Below, piece by piece: positions 6-42,192 of a DNA stretch of 43,874 bases; the stretch's first letter is position 1; every line of letters starts with the position of its first letter. The DNA is taken from positions 1-43,874 of IMG/VR virus record IMGVR_UViG_3300007511_000044. One strand, written 5' to 3'. This DNA is from a virus. The position numbers and the translations under genes were made by a program. The notes beneath the pieces are model-generated. The model had not been told where the DNA came from. It made no database searches and worked only from the letters and a program-made list of their open reading frames with translations.

Positions 6-3000
6 TTACTTAGTCCACATCTTACTAAGCTTTTCAAAGAGGAAATCGTTCTTGTCACGAAGTCGGCTTTCAACGGTGACTTCTTCTTTGGTAGCCACAT
101 ATTCGTCTAATATTGCCGTCATCGCGTCTTCTGCTTGGTGCTCCTCAATCGTTTCTTCATCTAACTCTTCAGAAACGTCGTCAGCCTCCTCTAAACGCGC
201 GCTGTTGGCAACATCTTCGCCTTCGCGGCCTCTACCATGGCCAGCAGCCTCGGAGCCGTCAGCGGACTTTCTACGCTCGTCTAGGTCATCTCTCTTATAA
301 TAAGATCCTTCCTCCAACTCATCGTGATCACCGCATGCTTCTTCTACGGTCTCTTCTTGTACATCATCTTCTTGAAGTTCGCTGGATTCAAAAAGAACCT
401 TCTTGAGGCCATCACGAACCATCTTTCTAATTTGGGTTTCACTTAACATTTTATTATTCTCCTTTATAGAATCTTCCCAATCTCTAAATAGGAATCCATT
501 GCCCATTAAATAGGCCTCGGCTTCCATTTTACGCAAATGGGGGTCCTTTTGTGCATATCCGGGCCCCGTGTCTGTTAATTTATCAAAATCCCCTCTACAA
601 TTTTGTGCATGGTGTACCAATTCATGGGAGAGGGATCTCATTAAATCTTTTGGATGCCTGTTATCGACATATAATACTATTTCATAATTTTCCGGATCAT
701 AATGAGCAGTTTTTCCTAATGGATTTGATGCGTTATCAGGATCTGAGGTCAATTTAATACCAGCCGGCTTATCAAATCCTAATCTTTGTTGAGAGTAAGG
801 ATAGAAGTCATACGCCATATCTATTAGCTGAGACATATCTTGATCAGTTTCGTCTGTTATATTAGGTTTTACAGAAATAGGCATAGATTCACTAATAATA
901 CCACGAACTTTCATTTCGTTTAATACTCTTTCAGAAATAACTTTCATATCCTGTTTACCAATTCTCTGCATATTCTTATTAAGGAATCTACGAATAACCT
1001 TCAACATTCTCTTATGTATCTTTTGACCTTCGGGAGAATTGATATTAATCCCGGCCGCTTTAAGATTGGGACCGACTGATTGTCTTGAGTTAACCTTACC
1101 TTTAGTAGTTCTGCCAGTATTTCTAGTATCGTCCTTATGTAATCCCGTGTCTTCTGGCCCGGTTTCTTGGTCTTTTACACCTCTTGCAGATCTTGAGGCT
1201 TTCATTGCTCTATCCGAGTCAACCAAACCTGCAATCTTAAAATATTTTATATATGTTTCTAACCATCTTTGAAATTCACTATTTTCAGTAGGCTCTTCTT
1301 GTTCGTTGAGAGGTTGAAGAATTTTTTCTATTTTTCCAGTACGATCTTCTAGTCTTCCAGTTTTAATTCCGCCTAGAGCTAGATTCATAGCTTTATAAAA
1401 TCTATAAGCACCTAAATAAGCTTCGTCTGTTTGTGAAGCAGCTTTCCTACCTTCAGGAGTATGCAAATCTAATATTCTTAATATTTCTTTAAAACGATTG
1501 AATAAACTATTGTCCTCTTCTTTACAATACTCTTTATCACCGGCCCAACAGAGAGCGGCGTTTCTTGCTTGTTTAGACTGGGCCTTTCTGGTCTTGCCTT
1601 CATAATCAGATAGATTAAATTCTTTCCTACTTCCATCAGCGCGCTGGCCAGTCCAAATATTGTCTGCAACAACTGCTTTATTATCAACAAACCTTAGTTT
1701 ACCAGCAGTTGGTTTTTTGGATTGCAGTGCATCTTCCAGAGCTTTCTTATGTTGTCTAAATAAATCATTACGACCAGACTTACGAGCTTTCTCTAATAAT
1801 ATCTTAGCAATAACTTCTTTGTTTTCTTGAATATTGATATTTTGAGATTTTAGCTGCTTCGCAATATCTTTAAGAATTTGAGATATAGCAGATTTAGGAA
1901 CATCTGGGAATACTTTCGCTAATTGGCTAGCTAAACTTCTTGGTGGCGCGCCGGCTTCTTGTTCTTTACCTGAGTGCTTCTTAAAAACAGGTACGGCAAA
2001 TTTGGAACCTGTACCTCCGCCGCCACCATCAGGATCGCCACCAGGACCAGTGGGACCCCCGGGCTGTCCGGGTTTTACAGGAAAGTTGCCGGGACCGGGG
2101 CCACCGTCTTTACAATCTACACCAAGACCCATGACCTGCTTATTCATCTTTTCAATGTAGTTTAGTACTTTTTCTTCTCGTGAAGATCTGAGAGCACCTA
2201 AAAATTTAGTTCTAGCGAAGTCGCCTAAGCCGGGTTTCCCTGTTTTCTTATCTGTTTTTGAATCTGCCCAACAATCAAAGATAGTTCTTAAATCACCACC
2301 TCTTTTTAATCGATCGTAGAAGTTTTCTTGAGGTTTACCTGTGTTTTCATTACCACTAGACATATGTGGCCTATATCTTCCGCCAACAGCTTCTATTATT
2401 TTTTGGACGCCTAATATAGATTCTTCTAGAGACTGATCACCTTTCATGATAGCAGACATCTTTTTATAGTCAACTGGGGACCTCATAGCTTTCTTAGCAC
2501 CAAATTTATCTAATGTCGCGGTAGCAAAACCAGCATTTAAAAATACTTTAAAGGATTTATCAAAATTTCTCCTACCGGACTCAAACCATTTATATAGAAA
2601 CTTAGAGTTTAAAACTTTGTGATATTGTTCTGGTCCGGTTATGTCTCTTTCACCTACCGCGGAGAACTTAGATAACATAACGCAGATGGCATATATTAAT
2701 CTCATTTCTGTTAACATACCAGCATTAATAGGTTGACTAAAAACTTCTATGACATCTAACTTTTTCTTTTCAAAAGCTGACCCCATATCTTTAAAGTTTT
2801 GATTAAACATTTTTAGCCATGTTGATGCTTTTCTTGCTAAATCAATTGCTTCTTCTGTAAATTCCAATTCTGAAGCACCGCTTTGTCGGTATTCTCTATC
2901 TTCGTAATCTTTTTTTATATTTTTAAATGCCTTCTGCACATTGGGATCTACTTTTGGAGTATCTTGCTCTGCTTCTTGTATATTTTCTTCGAGATTCCAC

Positions 3001-3440
3001 TCTGCCCCTAAACTATCAAGCTCATCTTTATGTTTGTCGGTAAGATCATCCAATTCGCCTCTTATAACCTGTATAGGGGCCTTACCAATCAAAAAATCAG
3101 GCTTTCCTAAGACTCTATTGGAAAATCCTTGTACTTTTTGGGCCGAAGTTGCAAATACTTTGTTAGTTATACGCATAAAGTCATTAAAAGACTTAGAATC
3201 ATTGACTGATTTAATGGCTTTGAATATTCTTTTTTCATATTCCCCCTCAGATTTATCAACAAATTGTAGTATAATATCGGCCTTTTTCTTGCGTTTTTTA
3301 CGATTTTCTGCCTTTTCGGCAGCATTATCAGCCTGCTCCTCGCCTTGATCTGCGAATTCTTCAGCGTCATTTTGCTCATTTAAGACAAATTTGTGCTTTT
3401 TTACGCTAATTCTGATGTTTTTGCGATTTGATGCAGTCAT
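6..3440 (-). CDS. Giant putative virion protein with HExxH peptidase motif
   Basis: A 1144-residue protein. Near residue 939 it carries SHELVHHAQN, the HExxH zinc-peptidase signature, followed about 35 residues later by a KMEAEAY stretch that could supply the third ligand. A Gly/Pro-rich collagen-like linker lies near residues 455-485. The N-terminal half is Lys-rich and helical, and the last 120 residues are very acidic. The end of the protein has a VEEAC-x2-H motif that recurs in the acidic protein at 39510..40169. Size, linker and neighbourhood suggest an ejected or structural virion protein with a peptidase module; this is inference. ATG at 3440 was chosen because the upstream in-frame start would be a TTG without a ribosome binding site. 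A CTAATTAT motif lies 40 nt upstream. Confidence 0.75.
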   Translation of the reverse strand: MTASNRKNIRISVKKHKFVLNEQNDAEEFADQGEEQADNAAEKAENRKKRKKKADIILQFVDKSEGEYEKRIFKAIKSVNDSKSFNDFMRITNKVFATSAQKVQGFSNRVLGKPDFLIGKAPIQVIRGELDDLTDKHKDELDSLGAEWNLEENIQEAEQDTPKVDPNVQKAFKNIKKDYEDREYRQSGASELEFTEEAIDLARKASTWLKMFNQNFKDMGSAFEKKKLDVIEVFSQPINAGMLTEMRLIYAICVMLSKFSAVGERDITGPEQYHKVLNSKFLYKWFESGRRNFDKSFKVFLNAGFATATLDKFGAKKAMRSPVDYKKMSAIMKGDQSLEESILGVQKIIEAVGGRYRPHMSSGNENTGKPQENFYDRLKRGGDLRTIFDCWADSKTDKKTGKPGLGDFARTKFLGALRSSREEKVLNYIEKMNKQVMGLGVDCKDGGPGPGNFPVKPGQPGGPTGPGGDPDGGGGGTGSKFAVPVFKKHSGKEQEAGAPPRSLASQLAKVFPDVPKSAISQILKDIAKQLKSQNINIQENKEVIAKILLEKARKSGRNDLFRQHKKALEDALQSKKPTAGKLRFVDNKAVVADNIWTGQRADGSRKEFNLSDYEGKTRKAQSKQARNAALCWAGDKEYCKEEDNSLFNRFKEILRILDLHTPEGRKAASQTDEAYLGAYRFYKAMNLALGGIKTGRLEDRTGKIEKILQPLNEQEEPTENSEFQRWLETYIKYFKIAGLVDSDRAMKASRSARGVKDQETGPEDTGLHKDDTRNTGRTTKGKVNSRQSVGPNLKAAGININSPEGQKIHKRMLKVIRRFLNKNMQRIGKQDMKVISERVLNEMKVRGIISESMPISVKPNITDETDQDMSQLIDMAYDFYPYSQQRLGFDKPAGIKLTSDPDNASNPLGKTAHYDPENYEIVLYVDNRHPKDLMRSLSHELVHHAQNCRGDFDKLTDTGPGYAQKDPHLRKMEAEAYLMGNGFLFRDWEDSIKENNKMLSETQIRKMVRDGLKKVLFESSELQEDDVQEETVEEACGDHDELEEGSYYKRDDLDERRKSADGSEAAGHGRGREGEDVANSARLEEADDVSEELDEETIEEHQAEDAMTAILDEYVATKEEVTVESRLRDKNDFLFEKLSKMWTK

Positions 3441-3517
3441 ATTTTCTAAAAATACCTCTAAAACACAGGTTATCAATAAATAATTAGTTTATTTTGTGTT
3501 TAAAAAGCTATTTTATT

Positions 3518-4450
3518 TCATCCGAGAGGCGGAGCGGACTTTGAACGCTTATTATGTTCGCCTTTTGTGCCAATTAATCGATTTTTAAGCCTAGAATGCT
3601 TTTTTTTAACCATTTTTTGGAATGGTTCCTCTTCTTCAAGCTTATTTTGGCCGTTTTCAACGAAATTCCGCATTTTTTTGTTAAAATCTTCGGACATGGA
3701 CATCATTTGGTCATAAGAATTACCAACTAACTTAGATAAGTTCTCTAAATACCCATTTCTACGTAAAACTTTGAATGCAAGGTTCTCTGAAGAGTATTGT
3801 CCACCACTTTCAAGGCCACATTGACGAAACTTCTTAATTTTTTGTTTAATTTTTGTAGCAAATTGATGTGCTTCTTCATACTTTTGCTTATAATACATTT
3901 CTTTAGCACAATCTATTAGGCACATAAGCTTGTCTGCTTTCATTTGTATATTCTCAAAGTCTATCTCTGGCTTTTCTAACACAGGTTGGACTAGCCATTC
4001 ATCATTTAAAACAGAATATACACCAGTAGAGATGTGAGCTTCATTAGAATCTTGCACATAGATCTCTACTTCGAAGCCTTTTATATGGATATCATGGCTC
4101 TTATTCCAGATTCCGTACTTACCTCGGAAGAATTCTCTAACTAAATCAGTGTTTTCATCTACTTTAGAGAAGTCTACTAACAAATGTAGGTCGATATCAG
4201 AGAACTTAGACCAATTAAAGTTAGCTAAAGACCCAGTAAAGGTAATATCTTCGTATTCTAGACCATCTAAACCTACATTTTGCAAAAAATCATCAACAAT
4301 TACAGTAAGTTGTTTAGATATATCTTCTTTTAGTATGCTATTCTCATCCCAAAAGCTTGGATGGAGGTGATCTTTTAGCTCAAAGCTCGTTAAATCTACT
4401 TTTTTAGAGTCTTGAACGAACTCTTGCCATAATTTCTTATAATTTGCCAT
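3518..4450 (-). CDS. Nucleotidyltransferase-like protein (Pol beta superfamily)
   Basis: A 310-aa protein. Residues 72-92 read TGSLANFNWSKFSDIDLHLL, matching the GS-x(n)-DxD metal-binding core of the Pol beta nucleotidyltransferase superfamily (GS at 73-74, D85 and D87). An acidic EVEIYV strand near 127-132 could supply the third carboxylate. The C-terminal third is a basic helical extension ending KSAPPLG. The family transfers nucleotides to RNA, proteins or small molecules; the acceptor cannot be read here. It sits between the giant virion protein and the lipoprotein, so virion packaging is possible. The superfamily call is fairly sure, the function unknown. Confidence 0.7.
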   Translation of the reverse strand: MANYKKLWQEFVQDSKKVDLTSFELKDHLHPSFWDENSILKEDISKQLTVIVDDFLQNVGLDGLEYEDITFTGSLANFNWSKFSDIDLHLLVDFSKVDENTDLVREFFRGKYGIWNKSHDIHIKGFEVEIYVQDSNEAHISTGVYSVLNDEWLVQPVLEKPEIDFENIQMKADKLMCLIDCAKEMYYKQKYEEAHQFATKIKQKIKKFRQCGLESGGQYSSENLAFKVLRRNGYLENLSKLVGNSYDQMMSMSEDFNKKMRNFVENGQNKLEEEEPFQKMVKKKHSRLKNRLIGTKGEHNKRSKSAPPLG

Positions 4451-4460
4451 AACTTAATTA

Positions 4461-6353
4461 TCACTCACAAGCGTTTTCATCAATGATTTCCATTAAACTA
4501 TTATATACAGTTAACATATCATCTGTTAACTCATACCATTTGCCGCCAGAGGCGGTGCATATAGGTTCCCACCCGGGATGATATGAACCATTATCTTTAT
4601 GCCATAGTTTTGAAAATATATATATCCTTGTATTGGACGTTTTATCTATTAATTGTAATAAAATATCTTGTTCAATTTCGGGATTTAAATAAGTTTGAGG
4701 AGTTTCATCAGTAAACAAGATAATAACTCTCTCAACATCTGTTTCAGTCCTCCAATTAACTTCAAAATCTAATAATGTAGGGTTAGATTGAGCAACTCCC
4801 TTCATAGTATTCCAAGCCAAGTCAGCCATTTTTATTGGTAAGGCTCCAGATCCTACTAAATTATGTAATGCGAGGTATAGAGCATCAACAAGCATCTCTC
4901 TAGCGCCCGTCATCGAATAAGAATTAACATTTAGTTGCGCCATAGCCGCCAAAAAATTGCTAAATCCTGACAAATTATGATGTAACTTAAGATATTCTGC
5001 ATATGGGCCGCCTAAACTCTCTAAGGGTCCTAAAATAATACCCCATTGGAGTACTTCTTCATCACTATATTGTCCCGCAAATTTATTGAGAGCAGTCATA
5101 ACAGCAATAATTTCAGTATCCATGGAACCTGACCAATCAACAATAAATAATACGTCAACCGGTTGTAATTCTTCTCCAGAATCAGTTACTCCGTCACAAT
5201 CATCATCAATACCATTACAAACTTCTTCTTGAGGCACAGTTTCATCTTTACAAAACCCGGGTGTGAAATATTGTGGCTCTTCTGGCATAGAAACCCAATA
5301 ATTTCCCCAAACCCCCGCAAGACATGTCATGATTCCTGGTTCACATATACCTACATATAAAGTATCCGGCTCTCCAGAATAACATTGAACATATAAATCT
5401 TCATCAATTAGCTGATTACAATTATCATCAAAATTATTGCATTCTTCTAATTCTAAAGGCATGCCGATTGTCGGCTCACAAACCTCATCTGGCTCTGGAA
5501 AGTAAACACAGGGTGCTACACAATCTGTTGTATAAATTTCTGTACAATCAACGTCCGCACATTCACACGTTTTATATCCTTGTCCACATAATAAAGGAGA
5601 TTCATTACAGGGAAATAGCGCCCCTACATGATCAATAGTACACTCACACTTAAGTTCTTCATCAATTTGCCCATCACAATCATTATCAAATCCATCGCAT
5701 ATTTCAATTTGTACAGGAGGCGCAGTACAGGATACCCAATTACCAGCAATACAATATTCTACGCCGACTCCGCATGCGGTAGAACATTCCTGAATAAGAT
5801 CTTCGTCGGATGCTCCATCACAATCATTATCAAATCCATCGCATATTTCTTCTGGAACAAATCCACACTCTCCACATGCATTTAGCTGACCTTCATCAAT
5901 AAAATCATCACAATCATTGTCTTCATAATCACAAATTTCTTCAGAACATAATGTTTCACAATTTGTAAATTTAATTTTTCCCTTATCACATACCTGTTCT
6001 TGCGTACCTGGGAAACCATCAATAGTTATACAGTCTATTGTTCCCATATTATAATTTGTGGGATCACACTCTAAAAATTCTTCACATTCACCGACTTCTA
6101 AAATTTTTGGAGGATCAAAACAGATATCTTTTGTTATTTTCATTCTCCACTGTGCATTTAGATCACAAAAAAACCATTCTTCGCGGATACACTCTTTTTG
6201 ATACTCTTCCGGAGACATTAATTCTAGAATAACTGGATTTGGAATTGTTATTGGATATAAATGAAGACCTTCACCTTTCTCTTCTTTTGGTTCAGCACAA
6301 GCATATACAAAACTTAAAAATAAAAGTAATATTAGTTGTACACACTTTTTCAT
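4461..6353 (-). CDS. Lipoprotein with MopE-type repeats and VWA domain
   Basis: A 630-aa secreted lipoprotein. The N-terminus is a signal peptide with lipobox FVYAC (Cys19). Five copies of the putative metal-binding MopE-type motif follow, such as EICDGFDNDCDGASDEDL and EVCNGIDDDCDGVTDSGE, in a Cys-rich region. From about residue 400 there is a von Willebrand A domain with the MIDAS motif DWSGSMD. Such proteins are typical of bacterial surfaces, notably in deltaproteobacterial lineages, and are unexpected in a phage. The ATG overlaps the stop of the upstream gene (ATGA), so it is translated as part of the phage operon. It may act on the infected cell surface or be a captured host gene. Domain calls are strong, role unknown. 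Confidence 0.85.
   Translation of the reverse strand: MKKCVQLILLLFLSFVYACAEPKEEKGEGLHLYPITIPNPVILELMSPEEYQKECIREEWFFCDLNAQWRMKITKDICFDPPKILEVGECEEFLECDPTNYNMGTIDCITIDGFPGTQEQVCDKGKIKFTNCETLCSEEICDYEDNDCDDFIDEGQLNACGECGFVPEEICDGFDNDCDGASDEDLIQECSTACGVGVEYCIAGNWVSCTAPPVQIEICDGFDNDCDGQIDEELKCECTIDHVGALFPCNESPLLCGQGYKTCECADVDCTEIYTTDCVAPCVYFPEPDEVCEPTIGMPLELEECNNFDDNCNQLIDEDLYVQCYSGEPDTLYVGICEPGIMTCLAGVWGNYWVSMPEEPQYFTPGFCKDETVPQEEVCNGIDDDCDGVTDSGEELQPVDVLFIVDWSGSMDTEIIAVMTALNKFAGQYSDEEVLQWGIILGPLESLGGPYAEYLKLHHNLSGFSNFLAAMAQLNVNSYSMTGAREMLVDALYLALHNLVGSGALPIKMADLAWNTMKGVAQSNPTLLDFEVNWRTETDVERVIILFTDETPQTYLNPEIEQDILLQLIDKTSNTRIYIFSKLWHKDNGSYHPGWEPICTASGGKWYELTDDMLTVYNSLMEIIDENACE
5671..5705. repeat. 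35-bp direct repeat, copy 1, in MopE motif
   Basis: Identical at the DNA level to 5815..5849, with a 144-bp period. It encodes the central ICDGFDNDCDG part of two adjacent MopE-type repeats, showing recent repeat duplication or homogenisation. Confidence 0.9.
5815..5849. repeat. 35-bp direct repeat, copy 2, in MopE motif
   Basis: Second exact copy of the 35-bp repeat at 5671..5705, inside the lipoprotein gene. Confidence 0.9.
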
Positions 6354-6634
6354 TTAAAGAAATCTCCTAAAAAAAATTCTCCCGTGTCTCTAAGTTCATA
6401 TGTTCTGTAATATTCCCAAGCTTTAACAAGTTCTCTTCCGGCCTCTATGGGACCAATATACAATTTATTTATTTTTTCCATATCCGCCCTATCAACAGGA
6501 AAAAAAGCTTTTAACTTCCATTGTAGTTTAGTACTTTGAAAAGCATGTCCTATATTATGTATCCCATGGTCATCTACTACACAAATATCTACTGTATGTT
6601 CATCGATATTTCTGTATGTGACCTTGTGTGTCAT
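6350..6634 (-). CDS. Hypothetical protein, 94 aa
   Basis: Not recognised. A mixed alpha/beta protein with a segment WKLKAFFPVDRADMEKINKLY and a Phe-rich end (GEFFLGDFFK). Its stop overlaps the lipoprotein start by 4 nt and its start overlaps the end of the zinc-ribbon gene, so the genes are translationally coupled. Confidence 0.65.
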   Translation of the reverse strand: MTHKVTYRNIDEHTVDICVVDDHGIHNIGHAFQSTKLQWKLKAFFPVDRADMEKINKLYIGPIEAGRELVKAWEYYRTYELRDTGEFFLGDFFK

Positions 6635-7961: not shown

Positions 7962-8387
7962 TTAGCTGTAAGATATTCCTGCAGTAGCTGATCCAACAAC
8001 CCACCAAACAGAATTTGTCCATACTAAATCGACAAAAGTAGCGGAGGCAGAAAAAGTAATAGTTCCAGAAGAGCCTCCACCCCAGGAGGCGCTAGAAACA
8101 GTTACGGTTAAACTATTATTATATCCAGTAACTAAAATCTTCTTAGCTTGCCCATCTACAGTCCCATCAGGTAAAGTAACAGATAAGGTACCCATTGCAG
8201 AAGTTAATACAGATAACGGTAAATAAATACTTAAGTTATCGCCACTATTAGCAGCTCCAGCTTTAGTCTCAGCGCTATAGGTAAGACCCTTAAGGATCAC
8301 CTCATCATTTCCGGTACCTAGAATAATATCGCCATCGACTTCTAGAGAGCCGGTTATTTGCGCATCAGCGCCATATTTTGTTGCCAT
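7962..8387 (-). CDS. Putative virion fibre or decoration protein
   Basis: 141 aa rich in Gly, Ser, Thr and Val. The N-terminus, GADAQITGSLEVDGDIILG, resembles the repeats seen in phage fibre and head-decoration proteins. The rest is predicted beta-strand (TVSSASWGGGSSGTITFSA). Its start and the stop of the next upstream gene share one base (TAATG). A structural role is inferred from composition. Confidence 0.55.
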   Translation of the reverse strand: MATKYGADAQITGSLEVDGDIILGTGNDEVILKGLTYSAETKAGAANSGDNLSIYLPLSVLTSAMGTLSVTLPDGTVDGQAKKILVTGYNNSLTVTVSSASWGGGSSGTITFSASATFVDLVWTNSVWWVVGSATAGISYS

Positions 8388-8662
8388 TATCTAAATATCC
8401 TTTCCTTCGACGTTCTTAATAGATCATACATGAAACTCTTTTTAAGTTTAAGTAACCTATTAAAACGAACTTTTTTCCTAGAATCAGTATAGAGAGTGGC
8501 TGGTTTCTTGATTTCTCCATCGATTAGCTGATCCTGGAAGTCGTAGAACTTCGATTTTGGCGATCTGCCGTGCGCAGTGCCAATATAAACGACTCCTATA
8601 ACGAATATTGCAACCAATATCCCAAAAGAGGCAACAAACATGTCTTTTAAAGTAGACCTCAT
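8387..8662 (-). CDS. Small membrane-anchored protein
   Basis: 91 aa with one transmembrane segment (about residues 8-30, VASFGILVAIFVIGVVYIG) followed by a basic tail ending in Arg/Lys-rich helices. Not recognised. A CTAATTAC motif lies 5 nt before the ATG. Confidence 0.6.
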   Translation of the reverse strand: MRSTLKDMFVASFGILVAIFVIGVVYIGTAHGRSPKSKFYDFQDQLIDGEIKKPATLYTDSRKKVRFNRLLKLKKSFMYDLLRTSKERIFR

Positions 8663-8702
8663 ATTGGTAATTAGTTAAAAATATCTCTAGATTAAAAAGT
8701 TC

Positions 8703-9075: not shown

Positions 9076-9100
9076 ATTTTACTCCTAGCTATACTAATAA

Positions 9101-9364
9101 CTAGTCTTGAGGCTCTTTTTCTAGTTTCGACAGGGTTTTTAACGTTTCAGATTCTTGTAGTTTAACCCTTGATACTAATTCTAAAGAATCACTAGGGAAA
9201 TAAAAGTAGCTGCCAAACGGCCACCAAAAAATTTTATACAGCAAGTTACCTTCAAAATTATCATATGAAATAACAATACCGATTTTGCACTGCCGGCCGG
9301 TGTGCTTTTTAGTAGATATATAATTTTTCGTAGGTTTAACTAAGTCGCCAATTTTGAAGTCCAT
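9101..9364 (-). CDS. GDLV-family small protein
   Basis: 87 aa starting MDFKIGDLVKPTKNY, an outlying member of the MK-x-GDLV paralog family that fills 19.4-28.2 kb. The beta-rich body (CKIGIVISYD, YKIFWWPFG) fits a small SH3-like barrel; the fold is inferred from pattern. It is divergent from its plus-strand paralog at 9382..9588 across only 17 bp. Confidence 0.65.
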   Translation of the reverse strand: MDFKIGDLVKPTKNYISTKKHTGRQCKIGIVISYDNFEGNLLYKIFWWPFGSYFYFPSDSLELVSRVKLQESETLKTLSKLEKEPQD

Positions 9365-9381
9365 ACCATAATTAGTCTTGT

Positions 9382-16077: not shown

Positions 16078-17304
16078 TTATACGTCAATAGCGATCACTC
16101 GCTCGTTAGTCTTAAAGTAGGGATGCTCCGCATAGTATCGCGTCGTCATCCACATACGCTGGCAATTGCTAGCCCTGGGTTTGGGCGCGCAAAGATCAGT
16201 CAAGATAATGTGACCGTCAAAATTGCCCTTGTTCACATAGTCAGTCGGAGCATTAAAACACGTTCCTCCGCACAAGACACGTTCCCAATTTTTAGTTTCG
16301 CCCTTCTTCCAAACATAAACCTTCTCCTCGAAAACTCGATCATCGAACGGAATCACGGTAAATGTTGCGATGTTGGACAGCTTGTTAAGCTCCGAATAGA
16401 ACGCGGCGAGCATAGCATCATCGACAGAACCAGATTGATCAATACTAATGGCGATGCTCGCGTTGCGCTTGACGCGCTTTCCTGGGTGAATGTGCGGGAA
16501 TCGTTTATTCAGTCGCTTAGGCGTAGACTTGCGCTCAGATCGCTGAGAAGTTTTTACGAAGTATCGCATGACCTTGCGCCAATCCACTTTAGGAGTAATG
16601 CGTTCCATAATTTGCTTACGCATTTCTGAGCTAACAGATCCCCAACCGGATCCACTAGAAGAAGCCTCTCCAGCAGCCTTTTTAACTGCATCCTTCAGTC
16701 GCTCTTTAGCCTGTGCGCTAGCGGTGGGGTCGCTCTGTCCCCAACCCTCGTGATCATCGAATTGGCCAGCTTCGTTGGGATCGATCTCGCCCTCACCCTG
16801 GCCACCTTGACCGTTCTGCTCTTGTTCTTCGATCTTTTGTTTGAGGAGATCGAAATAAAACTCGGCGGTCTGGCCTTCAGGGAAATCCTCGAACATGCCC
16901 TCGCCGGGAAAGCAGCACATATCGGGAAGATTAGAACGACCGATCAAATAATTGATAGAGAGATCAGCAGCAATATTCCACATCTTAAAGAGTTGTGCTT
17001 CTTTCTGTGTGGGGTTGTTCGACTTCATAACGCCAGCCAACTCATCGGGCAGGCGACCAGTAACGTGCTCAAACACAAGATGATAGAACTCATGGATGAT
17101 CACGCCAGTACGATGCGCGTCAGGCAGCGGTTCAAAGAAGTCTGGATTGTATCGAAGCTCGAAGTATCCAGTTTCAGGGTTGACTCGGACGCCAGCGGTC
17201 GGGATGCTCTTGTCTGCCATCTTATCGATGCGTCGAGAGAGAGCAGCGAAGAAGGGCTCGCGAACCATCAGGCGATGCGTATGTTCATTCAGGTTGAAAC
17301 TCAT
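16078..17304 (-). CDS. HExxH metallopeptidase/VWA-like protein (DUF2201 type)
   Basis: 408 aa. HEFYH at 71-75 is a zinc-peptidase signature in an N-terminal domain. A Gln/Gly/Ser-rich linker spans about 160-225. A VWA-like C-terminal domain has the MIDAS motif DQSGS at 289-293. This matches the putative metallopeptidase/VWA proteins that are partnered with MoxR AAA+ ATPases, one of which lies next door at 17541..18611. P10 gives it its own promoter, with an AGGAG ribosome binding site. Family assignment is strong; the substrate or complex being remodelled is unknown. Confidence 0.85.
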   Translation of the reverse strand: MSFNLNEHTHRLMVREPFFAALSRRIDKMADKSIPTAGVRVNPETGYFELRYNPDFFEPLPDAHRTGVIIHEFYHLVFEHVTGRLPDELAGVMKSNNPTQKEAQLFKMWNIAADLSINYLIGRSNLPDMCCFPGEGMFEDFPEGQTAEFYFDLLKQKIEEQEQNGQGGQGEGEIDPNEAGQFDDHEGWGQSDPTASAQAKERLKDAVKKAAGEASSSGSGWGSVSSEMRKQIMERITPKVDWRKVMRYFVKTSQRSERKSTPKRLNKRFPHIHPGKRVKRNASIAISIDQSGSVDDAMLAAFYSELNKLSNIATFTVIPFDDRVFEEKVYVWKKGETKNWERVLCGGTCFNAPTDYVNKGNFDGHIILTDLCAPKPRASNCQRMWMTTRYYAEHPYFKTNERVIAIDV

Positions 17305-17540: not shown

Positions 17541-18611
17541 TTAGTTGGAATCAGAAGCGAACATCTTGACCATCATCGAGGCGACGGTTCGACCATCAGC
17601 GGTCTCGCCCTTATGCAGAGCAACCACATTCTCCTGTGGACCCTCGCCCAGAACACCCCACAGCTTCATCGCAACCTCGGACGGAAGCGTAACGAAGTAG
17701 TTAACAACGTTCTGCATCTTCTCGTCTTCGATCTTCTCCTTGAAGATGCCCGAAGCCTGGAACTTCTCGATAAGAGCACAGTGGTCGTTGATACCAAAAT
17801 CATCCGTCTTGGAGATCTCGCCACGGTCAACAATGTCTTCGATAGTGACCTGTGACTCGTACTTGGCGCAGAAGTCATTGAACGATACAGCAGCCTCGAA
17901 TCCAATGAAGCCGGAAGCAAGGTGGAACACCACGGGTCCAGCAGAAGCCTTGGGATCCTCGGTCAGACCAGCGTTAACAAGGCAATCGTTGAAACGCTTC
18001 CACGAACGACGGGAAGGGTAAACCTTGTTAGGCTCGAACTCTCCATCATGCTCAAGGTGTGAGCGATTCTGGTTAACAAAGTCCCAAATAGGTCCAGAAA
18101 CATTGTCCTTTGCCCAATCGAGCCAGTCTTCAGCAGTCGGCTCCAGATCGAACACGGTATAGCGATCAAGCTCGGCGGGATCCATCTCGCCAACCTGATA
18201 CTGCGCGCCATGCTCGCCACCGTTGACGGCAGCAATGATCAGAGTCTCCGGGTGAAGAACCTGACCAGCGATCTTGCGCGAGTCACAAAGCTCGAAGAGT
18301 CCCTGTCGAACCTCAGTCACGGCTCGGTCAACCTCATCGAGAAAGAGAACCACGGCTCGACTACATGCAGCCGCCAGGAACTCAGGCGGGCACCAAGAGG
18401 TAACGTCGCCATCGGTGGAGGGAAGACCAAGCAGATCGCCCTCAGTCATCTGCGAAGCGCGGCGTTCCACAACGGGAAGGCCAAGATTGGCAGCAATCTG
18501 ATAAACAATCTCACTCTTGCCAATACCATGGCGGCCTCGAATGAGAACCGGCTTGCGTACAGCAAGAACGTGGGGAGCAATTTCATTGAATGTCTTGAAG
18601 TCGATAGCCAT
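17541..18611 (-). CDS. MoxR-type AAA+ ATPase
   Basis: 356 aa. Walker A GRHGIGKS at 26-33, Walker B VVLFLDEVD at 87-95, then a sensor-type ETLIIAAVNGG segment: a MoxR/CbbQ-like AAA+ ATPase. In bacteria these act with VWA proteins as chaperone-like remodellers, for example in metal-cofactor insertion. The partner gene 16078..17304 lies immediately downstream. P11 and a GGAGG ribosome binding site precede it. The family call is firm, the target unknown. Confidence 0.88.
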   Translation of the reverse strand: MAIDFKTFNEIAPHVLAVRKPVLIRGRHGIGKSEIVYQIAANLGLPVVERRASQMTEGDLLGLPSTDGDVTSWCPPEFLAAACSRAVVLFLDEVDRAVTEVRQGLFELCDSRKIAGQVLHPETLIIAAVNGGEHGAQYQVGEMDPAELDRYTVFDLEPTAEDWLDWAKDNVSGPIWDFVNQNRSHLEHDGEFEPNKVYPSRRSWKRFNDCLVNAGLTEDPKASAGPVVFHLASGFIGFEAAVSFNDFCAKYESQVTIEDIVDRGEISKTDDFGINDHCALIEKFQASGIFKEKIEDEKMQNVVNYFVTLPSEVAMKLWGVLGEGPQENVVALHKGETADGRTVASMMVKMFASDSN

Positions 18612-30190: not shown

Positions 30191-31180
30191 TCATAATGTA
30201 TGTGGATTCCCAGAAAAATGAACTTCTAAATTATTTCCTAACTTGTTTTGTAGCCACTTTTCCATATCTGTACCGGAAGAAAAATCTACCGTTTCACTGT
30301 TATTAATTAGTTTCCAAACTTTTACTTCTTCTAGAATATCAACCTTATTGAACACAAGCTTGTTAACTCCGTTAATCTTGGCGGCGCGCTCTAGTAAATT
30401 AAAGTCCATCCAGTTACATTGGCGCGCGCGACCTGTGGTTGCTCCGTACTCTTCACCAGCATCCCGAATTTTTTGAAATATTTTTTCCTTTGGCTCGAAG
30501 TCTTTGTATCCAGAGTAGGTTTCATATAGCTTGGCCACGCCCCATACATCTCTAATCCAAGATGGCGGGATAGCGTTGAGCAACGCTCCTGCGCTCGTAC
30601 AATGGCTAGACGTCACGTATGGGTAGTCGCCATGGTCTATGTCCAACCCAAAGCCTTGTGCGCCCTCACACAGTATCCTCACGGCCTCTCCAGACTCATG
30701 GAACTCTTCGTATAAGTTAATCAAATATGGCTCAAGTTCGGGAACATCCTTTGCGCGCACTCCCACGCGCGCGTACTTGTCTCTGTATGCGGGCCCATTG
30801 CCTTGCTTAGTTGTGCCTAACTTGCTATCCTTACCGTCCTCTTCAAGATGCTTTGTAGTGATTACATGCGTGTTATCAGCTATGTATAGCAGGCCTTGTG
30901 TATTAATACCGCCAGCCTCTAGCTCTTCAATTTCCTTAAAGAATTGAGCGGGGTTGACTACGCAGCCTGAACCTATTATCGACTTAACACCGTGGAATAC
31001 TCCGCTAGGTATATGATGGGTAACGAACTTTTTACCTTCGTGATAAATCGTATGGCCTGCGTTGCAGCCTCCGTTATATCTCAGTACGTGCGTGTACTTC
31101 TTATATTTACAAAGATAGTGCGTAACCTTTCCCTTACCACAGTCACCATATTGCAGATCGACAATTATATCAGCTAACAT
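30191..31180 (-). CDS. purA: Adenylosuccinate synthetase (PurA/PurZ superfamily)
   Basis: 329 aa, the short archaeal/phage form. Motifs: DLQYGDCGKGK at 8-18 with the catalytic Asp13, CNAGHT at 39-44 with His43, and TTGRARQCNWMDF further on. PurA joins IMP and Asp using GTP to make succinyl-AMP. The phage PurZ branch, which uses dGMP for 2-aminoadenine DNA, usually has Ser at the Asp13 site, so this looks PurA-like or PurZ0-like. It has its own TTGACA/TATACT promoter. The other IMP-branch enzyme is at 40817..41863. Confidence 0.85.
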   Translation of the reverse strand: MLADIIVDLQYGDCGKGKVTHYLCKYKKYTHVLRYNGGCNAGHTIYHEGKKFVTHHIPSGVFHGVKSIIGSGCVVNPAQFFKEIEELEAGGINTQGLLYIADNTHVITTKHLEEDGKDSKLGTTKQGNGPAYRDKYARVGVRAKDVPELEPYLINLYEEFHESGEAVRILCEGAQGFGLDIDHGDYPYVTSSHCTSAGALLNAIPPSWIRDVWGVAKLYETYSGYKDFEPKEKIFQKIRDAGEEYGATTGRARQCNWMDFNLLERAAKINGVNKLVFNKVDILEEVKVWKLINNSETVDFSSGTDMEKWLQNKLGNNLEVHFSGNPHTL

Positions 31181-34097: not shown

Positions 34098-35681
34098 CTA
34101 TAATTCCACTACCGCATGCCCAGATGTAATTAGTGAAGTAGCCACAGAAGCAGCATTTTGCAAGGCTGTTCTTGTAACCTTAACAGGATCTATTACACCA
34201 GCAGACATCATGTCTACAATCTCGCGGCTTACAAAATTATAACCATGGCTATTCTCGGCTGACTCGATCATAGAGATTATGATATCCGGAGATTCCGAAG
34301 CATTCAGAGACATTTGTCTTGCGGGCTCTTTGGCCGCATCAAGTACAATACTTGCTCCTAATTCTTGATCGTGGTTGTCAAGCTCTAGCCTTCTAATATC
34401 TTCTCTTACAATCTTCGCCACCCTCAGAAGGGCGGTACCGCCACCGGGTACCATACCTTCCTCCTGAGCTGATTTGACGGCCTCTAGGGCGTCTTCAATG
34501 CGATGTTTCTTTTCAATCATCTCGACTTCTGTTGCGGCGCCAACTTTGATAATCGCGATGCCGCTAGCTAGTCGAGTTATCCTCTCCTGAATTCTCTCGC
34601 ATTGCTTGAGATCGCTGGTCTGAGAAAGCTCGGTCTTTAGATTATCAATTGTCCTCTCAATATCTTCGATATCAGCTTCGCCACCAACGATCGTTGTAAA
34701 GTTCTTTACCACCTCTATGTTCCTACATATACCAAGATGCTTAAGCTCGACCTGATCCAATCCAACTCCTGCCTCTCTGGATATAAACGTCGCTCCAGTT
34801 GACACGCACAGATCCTTGAGAATATTTCTGCGCTCTTCTCCATACCTTGGAGCTTTTACTGCTGCAACTCTCAGTGTACCTCTGGTCTGATTCATAATTA
34901 AGGATGCCAAAGCTTGACCATCTACTTGTTCTGCTATAATAACCAAAGGTCTTCCATCTCTTGAAATAATCTCTAGAGTCGGCATGATCTCTTCTACTGT
35001 ACTGAGCTTGTAATCAGTAATCATCAGGAAGCAGTTATCATATTTGACTGCTCCCTTTCTTTCATCGTTGATAAAAGCGTTTGCAAAGTATCCAGAGTCG
35101 AACCTGAAGCCCTCAATAACATCTAAACTCGTATCTAGAGACTTTGCTTCCTCTACTGTAATCGCGCCATCCTTGCCAGCTTGGTCTGCTGCCATAGATA
35201 TCAACTCTCCGATAGCCTTGTCATTGTTAGCAGAGATGGTTGCGATATGCTTAATGTCTTCCTGGCTGGAGACAGGGCGCGCGAGACTCTTTAGTTCTGT
35301 AACCATAGCTTCGGTTGCCTTGTCGATGCCCCTCTTTAGATCAATAGGGACAGCGCCGGCCGCTAAGTATCTTTGGGAGTTGGTAAGGATTGCGCGCGAC
35401 AAGATCGTAGCCGTAGTCGTACCATCGCCTGCTTTCGCATTGGTTTGAAATGCGGCTTGCTTAACAATCTGCGCTCCAACATTCTCCATAGGATCTTCTA
35501 GATCAATGAAGGATGCGACAGTTACACCATCTTTAGTTACTATAGGATTCTTATCCTTCTGGTGTAAGATAACGTTTCTACCTCTCGGCCCAAGAGTAGA
35601 GCCTACGTTATCCGCTAGGGTATTCACACCCTTCAAAAGCTTTTCATTCAAAGCTTGGTTAGATGCATATTGCTTAGACAT
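34098..35681 (-). CDS. groEL: GroEL-type group I chaperonin
   Basis: 527 aa, full chaperonin length. GSTLGPRGRNV at 27-37, KDGVTV at 50-55 and GDGTTT at 85-90 are the nucleotide-binding motifs of GroEL, and the C-terminus retains the ATPase region (ALQNAASVA). It ends GHAVVEL with no Gly-Gly-Met tail. A phage GroEL would fold phage capsid or other proteins. No GroES-like gene is seen in the window. Its TTGACT/TATTAT promoter is host-like. Confidence 0.93.
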   Translation of the reverse strand: MSKQYASNQALNEKLLKGVNTLADNVGSTLGPRGRNVILHQKDKNPIVTKDGVTVASFIDLEDPMENVGAQIVKQAAFQTNAKAGDGTTTATILSRAILTNSQRYLAAGAVPIDLKRGIDKATEAMVTELKSLARPVSSQEDIKHIATISANNDKAIGELISMAADQAGKDGAITVEEAKSLDTSLDVIEGFRFDSGYFANAFINDERKGAVKYDNCFLMITDYKLSTVEEIMPTLEIISRDGRPLVIIAEQVDGQALASLIMNQTRGTLRVAAVKAPRYGEERRNILKDLCVSTGATFISREAGVGLDQVELKHLGICRNIEVVKNFTTIVGGEADIEDIERTIDNLKTELSQTSDLKQCERIQERITRLASGIAIIKVGAATEVEMIEKKHRIEDALEAVKSAQEEGMVPGGGTALLRVAKIVREDIRRLELDNHDQELGASIVLDAAKEPARQMSLNASESPDIIISMIESAENSHGYNFVSREIVDMMSAGVIDPVKVTRTALQNAASVATSLITSGHAVVEL

Positions 35682-40482: not shown

Positions 40483-40820
40483 AGGTCGGGATGTTCCTCC
40501 GCTAAAACGTCGAAAATCTCCTCTAGATCTCTACTATCAAGTCTATATTGTTTTCCAACTTTCTTGCCTTCTTCTATAAGTTTTTTATTTTTAGCCCTCT
40601 TGTTCTTGCCCTGCAATTCATATTGTTCTTTAAAATCATCAATATATTTCAAGATTAGATCGTCCTTCTCTAAGTAACCTGTAATCATAGCTCTAAAGAA
40701 CTGTGATTGGTTCATACCATCATATTTAAGTCTGGTTCTTAGGTCTGCTTGTCTCTTGTGAGAATCATAGAACATAAACTTTTTTCTTTCTCTTGGATTT
40801 GGTACCGGTGGTTTTTTCAT
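40479..40820 (-). CDS. Basic hypothetical protein, 113 aa
   Basis: Starts MKKPPVPNPRERKKFMFYDS; a Lys/Arg-rich helical protein with a YDGMNQSQFFRAMITGYL segment that recalls ribbon-helix-helix or other small DNA-binding folds. The end EEIFDVLAEEHPDL is acidic. Not firmly recognised. Start chosen by the overlap with the IMPDH-like stop. Confidence 0.58.
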   Translation of the reverse strand: MKKPPVPNPRERKKFMFYDSHKRQADLRTRLKYDGMNQSQFFRAMITGYLEKDDLILKYIDDFKEQYELQGKNKRAKNKKLIEEGKKVGKQYRLDSRDLEEIFDVLAEEHPDL

Positions 40821-41863
40821 TTTCTTCCTCTCATAATATGCGTAGAACTTTCTATTTGTCCAGCATTTGTTTGCTGCGCGAATTCGCATTTATTCTGAAA
40901 TTCGACAATATCTCTTGCGCCGGAATATGAAAATCCACTCTTTATACCGCCGCGAAGATCTTCTAATATATTTTGAACTTTTCCCTTGTAAGGTACAGTG
41001 GTAGAAACTCCTTCCGGAGTGGAAGTTTTAGATCTCCAATCTTTTTGAGCGGCGCTTGAAGCCATGCCCCGGTAAACTTTATATTTCTTACCGTTAGCAT
41101 TGCTAAATATTTCGCCAGGAGTTTCTTTCGTGCCGGCTAACAAAGAGCCCACCATCACGAAATCGGCACCAGCGCCGAGAGCTTTTACAATATCTCCGGA
41201 TGTTTTTATGCCTCCATCAGCTATGATCTTTGTATCAAAGCTAGTCTTGGAGCAATCCAATATACTTTGTAGGGTCGGAATTCCATGGCCAGATACTATC
41301 CTAGTCGAACATATACTCCCGCCGCCGATCCCAACCCTTATGCTGTCCGCGCCCCAAGAGGCCAAAGCGCTGAAAGCCTCTAAAGTAGCTACGTTGCCAG
41401 CCATGATATGCACATCACCTTCGAACCGGTCCTTTAATGTTTTAATACATCTTTCCATCATAATATGGTGCCCATGAGCAACGTCTATACACAGCATGTC
41501 AACATCGCATGTATTATATAAATAGGTGGCGCGCTGAATATAATCCCCTGTCATTCCAATTGCTGCCGCGCGGTAGCCTTCGACTTCCGACAAAATAATA
41601 GCCTGCTCCTCGACTGAATTGTATCGATGTACAATCCCGAAGCCTCCGGCATGTACCATCGCGTTTGCCATATTGGCGCCAGTTATTGTATCCATCGGGC
41701 TGGATATAATGGGCAACTCAAAATTCCTAGTTTCGTCTAGTGAGCTTGAGGTATCCACTTCTTTTCTACTTTCTATATCACTATACTTAGGTACCAGTAA
41801 AACGTCCTCGAAAGAAAGCGTTTGGCGCGGTGCCGGAGGATTATAAACTAAAGATTCTGTCAT
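40817..41863 (-). CDS. IMP dehydrogenase/GMP reductase family enzyme
   Basis: 348 aa without CBS domains. PMDTITGANMANA, the GGGSICSTR loop with catalytic Cys185, ADGGIKTSGDIVKALGAGAD and YRGMASS are all present. Length is that of GMP reductase, but YRGM and the EGVSTTVPYKG end lean to IMP dehydrogenase. IMPDH would make XMP from IMP for GMP synthesis; GMP reductase would do the reverse. The direction cannot be decided by eye. It complements PurA at 30191..31180. Confidence 0.85.
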   Translation of the reverse strand: MTESLVYNPPAPRQTLSFEDVLLVPKYSDIESRKEVDTSSSLDETRNFELPIISSPMDTITGANMANAMVHAGGFGIVHRYNSVEEQAIILSEVEGYRAAAIGMTGDYIQRATYLYNTCDVDMLCIDVAHGHHIMMERCIKTLKDRFEGDVHIMAGNVATLEAFSALASWGADSIRVGIGGGSICSTRIVSGHGIPTLQSILDCSKTSFDTKIIADGGIKTSGDIVKALGAGADFVMVGSLLAGTKETPGEIFSNANGKKYKVYRGMASSAAQKDWRSKTSTPEGVSTTVPYKGKVQNILEDLRGGIKSGFSYSGARDIVEFQNKCEFAQQTNAGQIESSTHIMRGRK

Positions 41864-42192
41864 TTGCGTTTCTCCTGTAATTTTTGAATCAGTCTCTCTA
41901 CATACCACTTGGCCTTTTTTAAGTCTTCAAGCGGACTTCCCTTGTACTTGTGCCTGGAAAGATACTTAATCGCATTACCTGTGTTGAAATCCATATCCCA
42001 AGATTCTATGAAATCTATCACTTCTATACCCTTATTGTAGTGATCGGGATGATCAACTAATTCCTTTTTCTCTTTCACACATTCCTCACAAGTTTCAATA
42101 GCTATCGTATTATAAGCTTTAGGGTTCTCTCCCCCAACGGTATCATACTTCTTCAAGTGTCGCTTACATAAAGGAAAGAGTACTTTTGCCAT
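41860..42192 (-). CDS. DUF3310 family protein, 110 aa
   Basis: HPDHYNKGIEVIDFIES at 48-64 and AIKYLSRHKYKG are the hallmarks of the phage DUF3310 family (SaV-like). The N-terminal 45 residues hold Cys9, Cys35 and Cys38. Function unknown; members are often near nucleotide genes, as here. ATGA overlap with the IMPDH-like gene. Confidence 0.8.
   Translation of the reverse strand: MAKVLFPLCKRHLKKYDTVGGENPKAYNTIAIETCEECVKEKKELVDHPDHYNKGIEVIDFIESWDMDFNTGNAIKYLSRHKYKGSPLEDLKKAKWYVERLIQKLQEKRK

Follow-up and report, generated by a model that had tools for sequence, protein, structure and literature searches.

In Myxococcus xanthus, the Agl-Glt machine includes two VWA outer-membrane lipoproteins, CglB and CglD (PMC4488436). 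CglB is described as a surface adhesin of this machine (Islam et al. 2023, as cited in PMC11752065); the corresponding source for CglD is Jolivet et al. 2023, as cited in PMC11444678. The M. xanthus genes gltD, gltE and gltF encode proteins of 1191, 471 and 89 aa and follow each other in this order; GltF is found in focal-adhesion clusters, and there are duplicated glt clusters that have other roles (PMC3169522). In the literature, a survey of 1180 proteomes recovered GltF from Myxococcales and Bdellovibrionales and from no other group. The copper site of MopE* is formed by two His residues and kynurenine and sits elsewhere in MopE than the repeats, and calcium is reported to stabilise the protein (PMC3423442). 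Our literature search, which covered open papers, yielded none linking phages with MopE or GltF.

The gene studied here occupies positions 4461–6353 on the minus strand of the window, that is, of the whole analysed stretch of DNA, a complete IMG/VR virus record of 43,874 bp. The initial annotation gave no strand, but correctly described a complete lipoprotein ORF: the signal peptide, five Cys/Asp repeats and the VWA domain were all found. The product has 630 aa (family f0; further referred to as the lipoprotein), and all features listed below lie on the minus strand. The type II signal peptide MKKCVQLILLLFLSFVYA and the lipobox Cys19 (FVYA/C-AEPK, with Ala at position +2) together occupy 6297–6353. 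They are followed by an N-terminal Cys domain (aa 55–133, 5955–6191) with the pattern ..DGFPGTQ..C.KG.., five MopE-like repeats, a central Cys-rich domain (aa 234–304, 5442–5654) situated among them, and an integrin-beta-like VWA domain; the N-terminal and central domains were seen in the phage family only. The ATGA coupling reported earlier is also real, as the ATG of the gene overlaps the stop codon of a 94-aa gene without an assigned function (family f47, 6350–6634, minus strand). The downstream gene (3518–4450, minus strand) encodes a 310-aa protein of phrog_36119 with relatives in T4-like and huge phages.

Relatives of the lipoprotein were detected in 443 IMG/VR loci by a profile scan with E-values up to 1e-3, the weak ones among which may match through the repeats only. 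The best 80 of the 443 loci, on contigs of up to 267 kb, were retained; 88 copies were studied, and these relatives keep the same design. The family had no match in 50,697 INPHARED phage records and no NCBIfam model. No PHROG was assigned to the window protein, and only three of 16 relatives had a marginal one. Full-length relatives were found on virus contigs only, and bacterial matches cover just the repeats or the start of the VWA domain. The N-terminal Cys domain had no match in 379 Myxococcota genomes and the central Cys-rich domain none in 189, both searches having been run without a positive control. These results contradict the initial view that the architecture simply belongs to bacterial cell surfaces and was borrowed from there, and for the same reasons recent capture of a host gene was rejected. 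Judging by the searches performed, the gene is not a stray bacterial one but represents a phage family. Cellular VWA lipoproteins of a related design do occur in Myxococcota genomes (loci L227, L229 and L232), and two of these carry calcium-type repeats and have a MopE-like motif at their end; the alignment of these cellular proteins to the phage family spans about 50 aa of the VWA domain only.

Each of the 85 copies whose N-terminus is intact has the signal peptide and the lipobox Cys (74 recognised by script, one of them doubtful on account of an Arg preceding the Cys, and 11 by eye); the remaining three of the 88 copies are truncated there. In an alignment of 16 sequences the Cys of the lipobox is invariant, as are nearly all others, and the linker following the lipobox varies freely. 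The +2 residue of the 74 copies is mostly Ser, Ala, Thr, Gly or Asn, with Lys and Asp occurring once each. The inner-membrane lipoprotein signal is Lys at +2 in M. xanthus and Asp at +2 in E. coli (PMC3222651); since the +2 residue is mostly neither, the retention signal of these bacteria is not present. The protein is thus a lipoprotein of bacterial type, probably of the outer membrane, made by the phage, and we infer that it is exposed on the cell surface rather than on the periplasmic face.

The five MopE-like repeats are CDYEDNDCDDFIDE (aa 141–154, 5892–5933), CDGFDNDCDGASDE (aa 171–184, 5802–5843), CDGFDNDCDGQIDE (aa 219–232, 5658–5699), CNNFDDNCNQLIDE (aa 305–318, 5400–5441) and CNGIDDDCDGVTDS (aa 379–392, 5178–5219). 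The Pfam family PF11617 (Cu-binding_MopE) matches the protein with an E-value of 1e-16 and 61.3 bits against a curated cut-off of 27. The Asp-rich loops of the repeats are invariant in the 16 aligned sequences and have the spacing of calcium loops (DxDxDGxxDE), which suggests that the repeats bind calcium. The identity of 35 bp of DNA between two repeats is exact (5671–5705 and 5815–5849). The further claim that the repeat region has been recently active stands in part. In its DNA, repeat 2 resembles repeat 3 of this gene (85% identity) more than it does the orthologous repeat 2 of loci L002 (74%) and L003 (72%), a likeness that fits local gene conversion; on the other hand, the repeat number, which ranges from four to eight across 87 copies, is constantly five in all close relatives.

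The VWA domain covers aa 393–630 (4464–5177). Its AF2 model has a mean pLDDT of 90.4 and a pTM of 0.91. In the Foldseek search with this model, integrin beta-3 took ranks 1–3 (integrin I domains: E-value 4e-7, probability 1.00), and the other matches were further integrin and VWA domains; TM-scores of the structural matches were moderate, 0.5–0.7 by the better normalisation. When a profile of 26 copies was compared with PDB sequences, the nine best matches were all integrin beta-8 (E-values from 6e-4 to 7e-3). With the Pfam VWA model, relatives scored 17–23 bits, below the cut-off of 23.8, and the window protein itself was not among the matches.

D406xS408xS410, E486xxxD490A, W534R535 and D549 are the invariant positions of the window copy; all 26 phage copies keep DxSxS, the Glu and the Asp of E-x3-D-A-[IL], WR and the Asp, and the Ala of the second motif is nearly invariant. 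Integrin beta-3 has D119xS121xS123, E220GGFD224AI, W238R239 and D251 (the sequence is identical to PDB 1tye_B), of which D119xS121xS123, E220 and D251 are the metal ligands. The E-x3-D-A segments correspond by motif, the profile alignment itself spanning the DxSxM and WR..TD parts. The Thr canonical to the sites of alpha-I and VWA domains is not conserved in the phage copies, and Glu replacing Thr at the predicted metal site is the beta-type arrangement. The predicted site is therefore a MIDAS of the integrin-beta type (DxSxS, Glu, Asp); by way of a divalent cation it would be expected to bind an acidic ligand.

A T4-type large terminase was found on 23 of the 35 contigs tested. These terminases are 45–97% identical to each other and at most about 44% identical to that of any cultured phage, the nearest being Flavobacterium phage immuto (TerL, 43%) and Microcystis phage Mel-JY01. 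By this gene, the carriers in which a packaging gene was identified belong to the T4-type myoviruses. The lipoprotein gene is present on one of 26 TerL-bearing contigs, most contigs being short and the gene lying about 45–110 kb from TerL; it is probably not universal in the clade. The contig with the closest relative of the gene, L002, encodes homologs of gp17, gp20, gp21, gp23, tail sheath, tube and baseplate wedge. Its lipoprotein gene is located at about 152–154 kb, some 110 kb from the head and tail block at 22–45 kb, and the baseplate wedge is at 80 kb. In another lineage (L013–L018 and others) the lipoprotein gene is found between ThyX and DnaE within a replication block, its neighbours mostly being separated from it by 0–3 bp or sharing about 10 bp with it. 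Both arrangements place the lipoprotein gene outside the structural cluster. Homologs common across unrelated phages as virion proteins without signal peptides had been named as evidence that would speak against the initial interpretation; homologs are indeed common in phages, but they carry signal peptides throughout and the gene lies outside the virion cluster.

A second lipoprotein gene often comes after the first one (families f11, f38, f94 or f57), in several lineages immediately so. Family f11 (L007:7764-8372, L030, L043, L049, L052, L054 and others) has a HELVH motif resembling that of zinc peptidases and a weak SprT-like match; an f38 lipoprotein gene at L034:7802-8110 directly follows the VWA lipoprotein gene. 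Several other minus-strand genes were noted in the window. The protein encoded at 6–3476 (1156 aa) has an HExxH-like motif and is related to an NMN-adenylyltransferase-type protein of phage immuto. A DUF2201 gene (metallopeptidase plus VWA-like) and a MoxR/AAA-type ATPase gene stand side by side at 16078–17304 and 17541–18611 in the early-type region. The phage GroEL gene (34098–35681) encodes a protein at best about 46% identical to INPHARED copies. Two genes of purine metabolism, one for an adenylosuccinate synthetase (PurA/PurZ-like, 30191–31180) and one for an IMPDH/GMP-reductase-type enzyme (40817–41908), could bear on modified DNA bases.

About 2 kb upstream of the lipoprotein gene, in the same gene group, an exported 91-aa protein is encoded (family f23, 8387–8662, minus strand). 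It is 71% identical over 56 aa to copies in Myxococcota gltD-gltE-gltF clusters, and the comparison concerning the monophyly of the phage copies covers the same small number of positions, 56. The cellular copies, those in loci L322–L329 among them, are mostly 83–88 aa long and, in the bacterial genomes inspected, follow a gene for a TPR protein of 1149–1196 aa and, where the call of that gene was clean, one for a TPR lipoprotein of 457–520 aa. On the grounds of this gltD-gltE-gltF synteny, size and the signal peptide, we consider the protein a GltF homolog. Strong homologs were found in 65 of 141 genomes of the phylum to which a Myxococcales MAG belongs (best E-value 1.6e-35) and also in other MopE-rich bacterial genomes. 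There were none in 96 genomes of another phylum, selected through a Magasanikbacteria MAG, and none in plasmids or INPHARED. With 114 IMG/VR loci, family f23 is common among these marine phages, and in many of them it occurs alongside the lipoprotein gene. Both genes are present on 19 contigs that are 60 kb or longer; their midpoints are within 8 kb of each other in nine of these, with 2.6 expected, and within 9 kb in 13, the latter limit having been looked at afterwards; a part of this linkage may reflect shared ancestry. No GltC, GltD or GltE was found in the phage loci examined, and no GltF was seen near those family members that reside in DNA-replication blocks.

MopE repeats are abundant in the same bacteria as GltF homologs. 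Together with the reported restriction of GltF to Myxococcales and Bdellovibrionales, this points to hosts of the Myxococcota or Bdellovibrionota type. The suggestion that the lipoprotein marks the host lineage is supported in this sense, mainly by the neighbouring GltF homolog. A Bacteroidota host, considered because the nearest cultured phage is immuto, was not favoured: Shine-Dalgarno sequences and TTGACA-type promoters were seen by eye at the phage genes, and GltF points elsewhere.

Two motif classes were distinguished in the window, the assignment to early and late being made solely by position and strand bias. The minus strand holds 27 copies of GTGCTTAY and the plus strand none, with 1.5 expected per strand; they lie nearly always just 5' of small genes or tRNAs at 12.5–28.8 kb, and the motif is probably an early phage promoter. 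Its minus-strand copies at 11.4–28.8 kb have a cTTAAtt box about 19 nt upstream. The second class, ACTA[AGT]TTA (written ACTANTTA), has 11 copies on one strand and one on the other, with sites at 3488, 8675, 9105, 9376, 34090, 37459, 40224 and others. In the L002 genome (20 versus 4 by strand) this motif precedes sheath, head-completion and wedge genes; hence it is probably the clade's late promoter. The transcription unit of the lipoprotein has the late-type motifs ACTAATTA at 8668–8675, before the GltF homolog, ACTAGTTA at 9098–9105 and ACTAATTA again at 9369–9376 (all minus strand), and the early motif is absent from it. The T4 late promoter TATAAATA was also tried; its six occurrences in the window versus 3.2 expected are not significant.

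The explanation that we tentatively prefer, giving it somewhat less than an even chance, is that the lipoprotein is a phage-made outer-membrane adhesin which alters adhesion or gliding of the infected cell in the manner of CglB and CglD, with GltF as a partner in the lineage of the window. It builds on computed features, namely the lipoprotein signal, the fold, the metal-site residues, their conservation, the non-virion position and the nearby GltF homolog. The VWA domain would be held out by the lipid anchor and by a stalk that is rich in disulfides and contains the calcium-loop-like repeats, and its metal site would bind an acidic ligand via a divalent cation. The protein would then work like the myxobacterial gliding adhesins and, together with the phage GltF homolog, would engage the gliding and focal-adhesion machine Agl-Glt of a Myxococcota- or Bdellovibrionota-type host. 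Adhesion or movement of the infected cell would serve the phage, for example with the cell staying attached or gliding, or with the host adhesin being replaced. Several facts tell against this explanation: the examined phage loci lack the other three Glt proteins named above, some family members sit in replication blocks with no GltF seen nearby, the existence of duplicated glt clusters with other roles (PMC3169522) could break the link to gliding, and both CglC and the phage protein Llp face the periplasm (PMC4488436, PMC9586334). A broader statement, that marine T4-like phages of one deep clade possess a small gliding kit of an integrin-beta-like surface adhesin and GltF, and that this kit plugs into the Agl-Glt machine of predatory gliders and controls the sticking or movement of infected cells, seems to us doubtful.

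The main rival is superinfection exclusion or protection of the progeny, in which the lipoprotein would mask or jam a phage receptor in the outer membrane, the way T5 Llp acts on FhuA. Adsorption of related phages, or of the progeny of the phage itself, to infected cells and debris would thereby be prevented. Phage outer-membrane lipoproteins with such a role are well known (T5 Llp, PMC9586334; Ltp, PMC3952083), the lipobox is universal in the family, other lipoproteins often come directly after this one, and late-type motifs in the window's lineage fit progeny protection. However, the known examples named here are small and have no VWA domain or MIDAS, and a multidomain adhesin-like protein of 600–750 aa is far beyond what the task needs. 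A receptor blocker would also be expected to diversify, whereas the VWA metal site is invariant despite divergent terminases, and the GltF homolog is left unexplained. We regard exclusion as rather unlikely.

A cell-cell adhesin gluing infected cells to neighbours or surfaces, so that the progeny meet new hosts, with no direct link to gliding, would agree with the integrin-beta-type site and the adhesin-like layout, and would need no GltF in the lineages where none was seen. The closeness of the gene to the GltF homolog in many phages argues against it, no ligand is known, and we consider it improbable. Metal capture, i.e. gathering of calcium, copper or another metal by the repeats at the surface of the infected cell, is highly improbable. 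Metal binding, which the initial annotation proposed, is itself probable for divalent metals, given the calcium-loop-like repeats and the predicted MIDAS, and both the PF11617 match and the invariant Asp-rich loops agree with a metal store; yet an invariant MIDAS would be superfluous for such a store. Copper binding by the repeats was rejected as unsupported: with the copper site of MopE* (two His and kynurenine) lying elsewhere and calcium stabilising MopE, the repeats look structural (PMC3423442). Finally, a virion component such as a fibre or tail-tip adhesin with an incidental signal peptide, for which one may cite VWA domains in other phage proteins of unassigned role, was ruled out for practical purposes by the lipoprotein signal in every intact copy and by the position of the gene away from head, tail and baseplate genes, within replication blocks in the other lineage.

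The family is common in ocean viromes and yet has no match in INPHARED or NCBIfam, nor does a PHROG exist for it. For these uncultured phages it would indicate a probable host range, gliders of the Myxococcota or Bdellovibrionota type, for which few phages are known to us, and the GltF homolog renders this assignment testable at once. It would also add adhesion and motility to the functions taken over by phages, and it offers a compact bacterial-type domain resembling that of integrin beta. If the proposed role is true, there exist a motility and adhesion class of phage auxiliary genes and integrin-beta-type ligand binding in a virus.

Compared with known systems, the lipoprotein shares with CglB and CglD the outer-membrane lipoprotein signal, the VWA domain and the proposed metal-dependent adhesion, the likeness being one of described designs, and the phage encodes a GltF homolog as well; it differs in being phage-encoded and in its two Cys domains, unmatched in the searched Myxococcota genomes. 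The GltF homolog resembles GltF (MXAN_4868) in synteny and size, being similarly short, having a signal peptide and having cellular homologs in the gltD-gltE-gltF order, but in the phage it stands alone, without gltC, gltD and gltE. With the I domain of integrin beta (beta-3, beta-8) the protein shares the VWA fold, DxSxS, the Glu in E-x3-D-A, the Asp ligands and WR..TD, at about 12–17% identity in structural alignments; in contrast to integrin beta, it has no known alpha partner, and the lipid anchor replaces the transmembrane helix. The C-D-x-x-D-N-D-C-D-G-x-x-D-E repeats are those of bacterial PF11617 proteins, abundant in Myxococcota genomes, but the bacterial matches align over the repeats only and none is full-length. 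The superinfection-exclusion lipoproteins T5 Llp, Cor and Ltp are likewise phage-encoded and act in the host envelope, but they are small, have neither VWA domain nor MopE repeats, and no sequence relation to them was found. Phage envelope lipoproteins and VWA adhesins are known kinds of proteins; what is new, to our knowledge, is a widespread phage family that unites the two, has an integrin-beta-type metal site and is accompanied by GltF.
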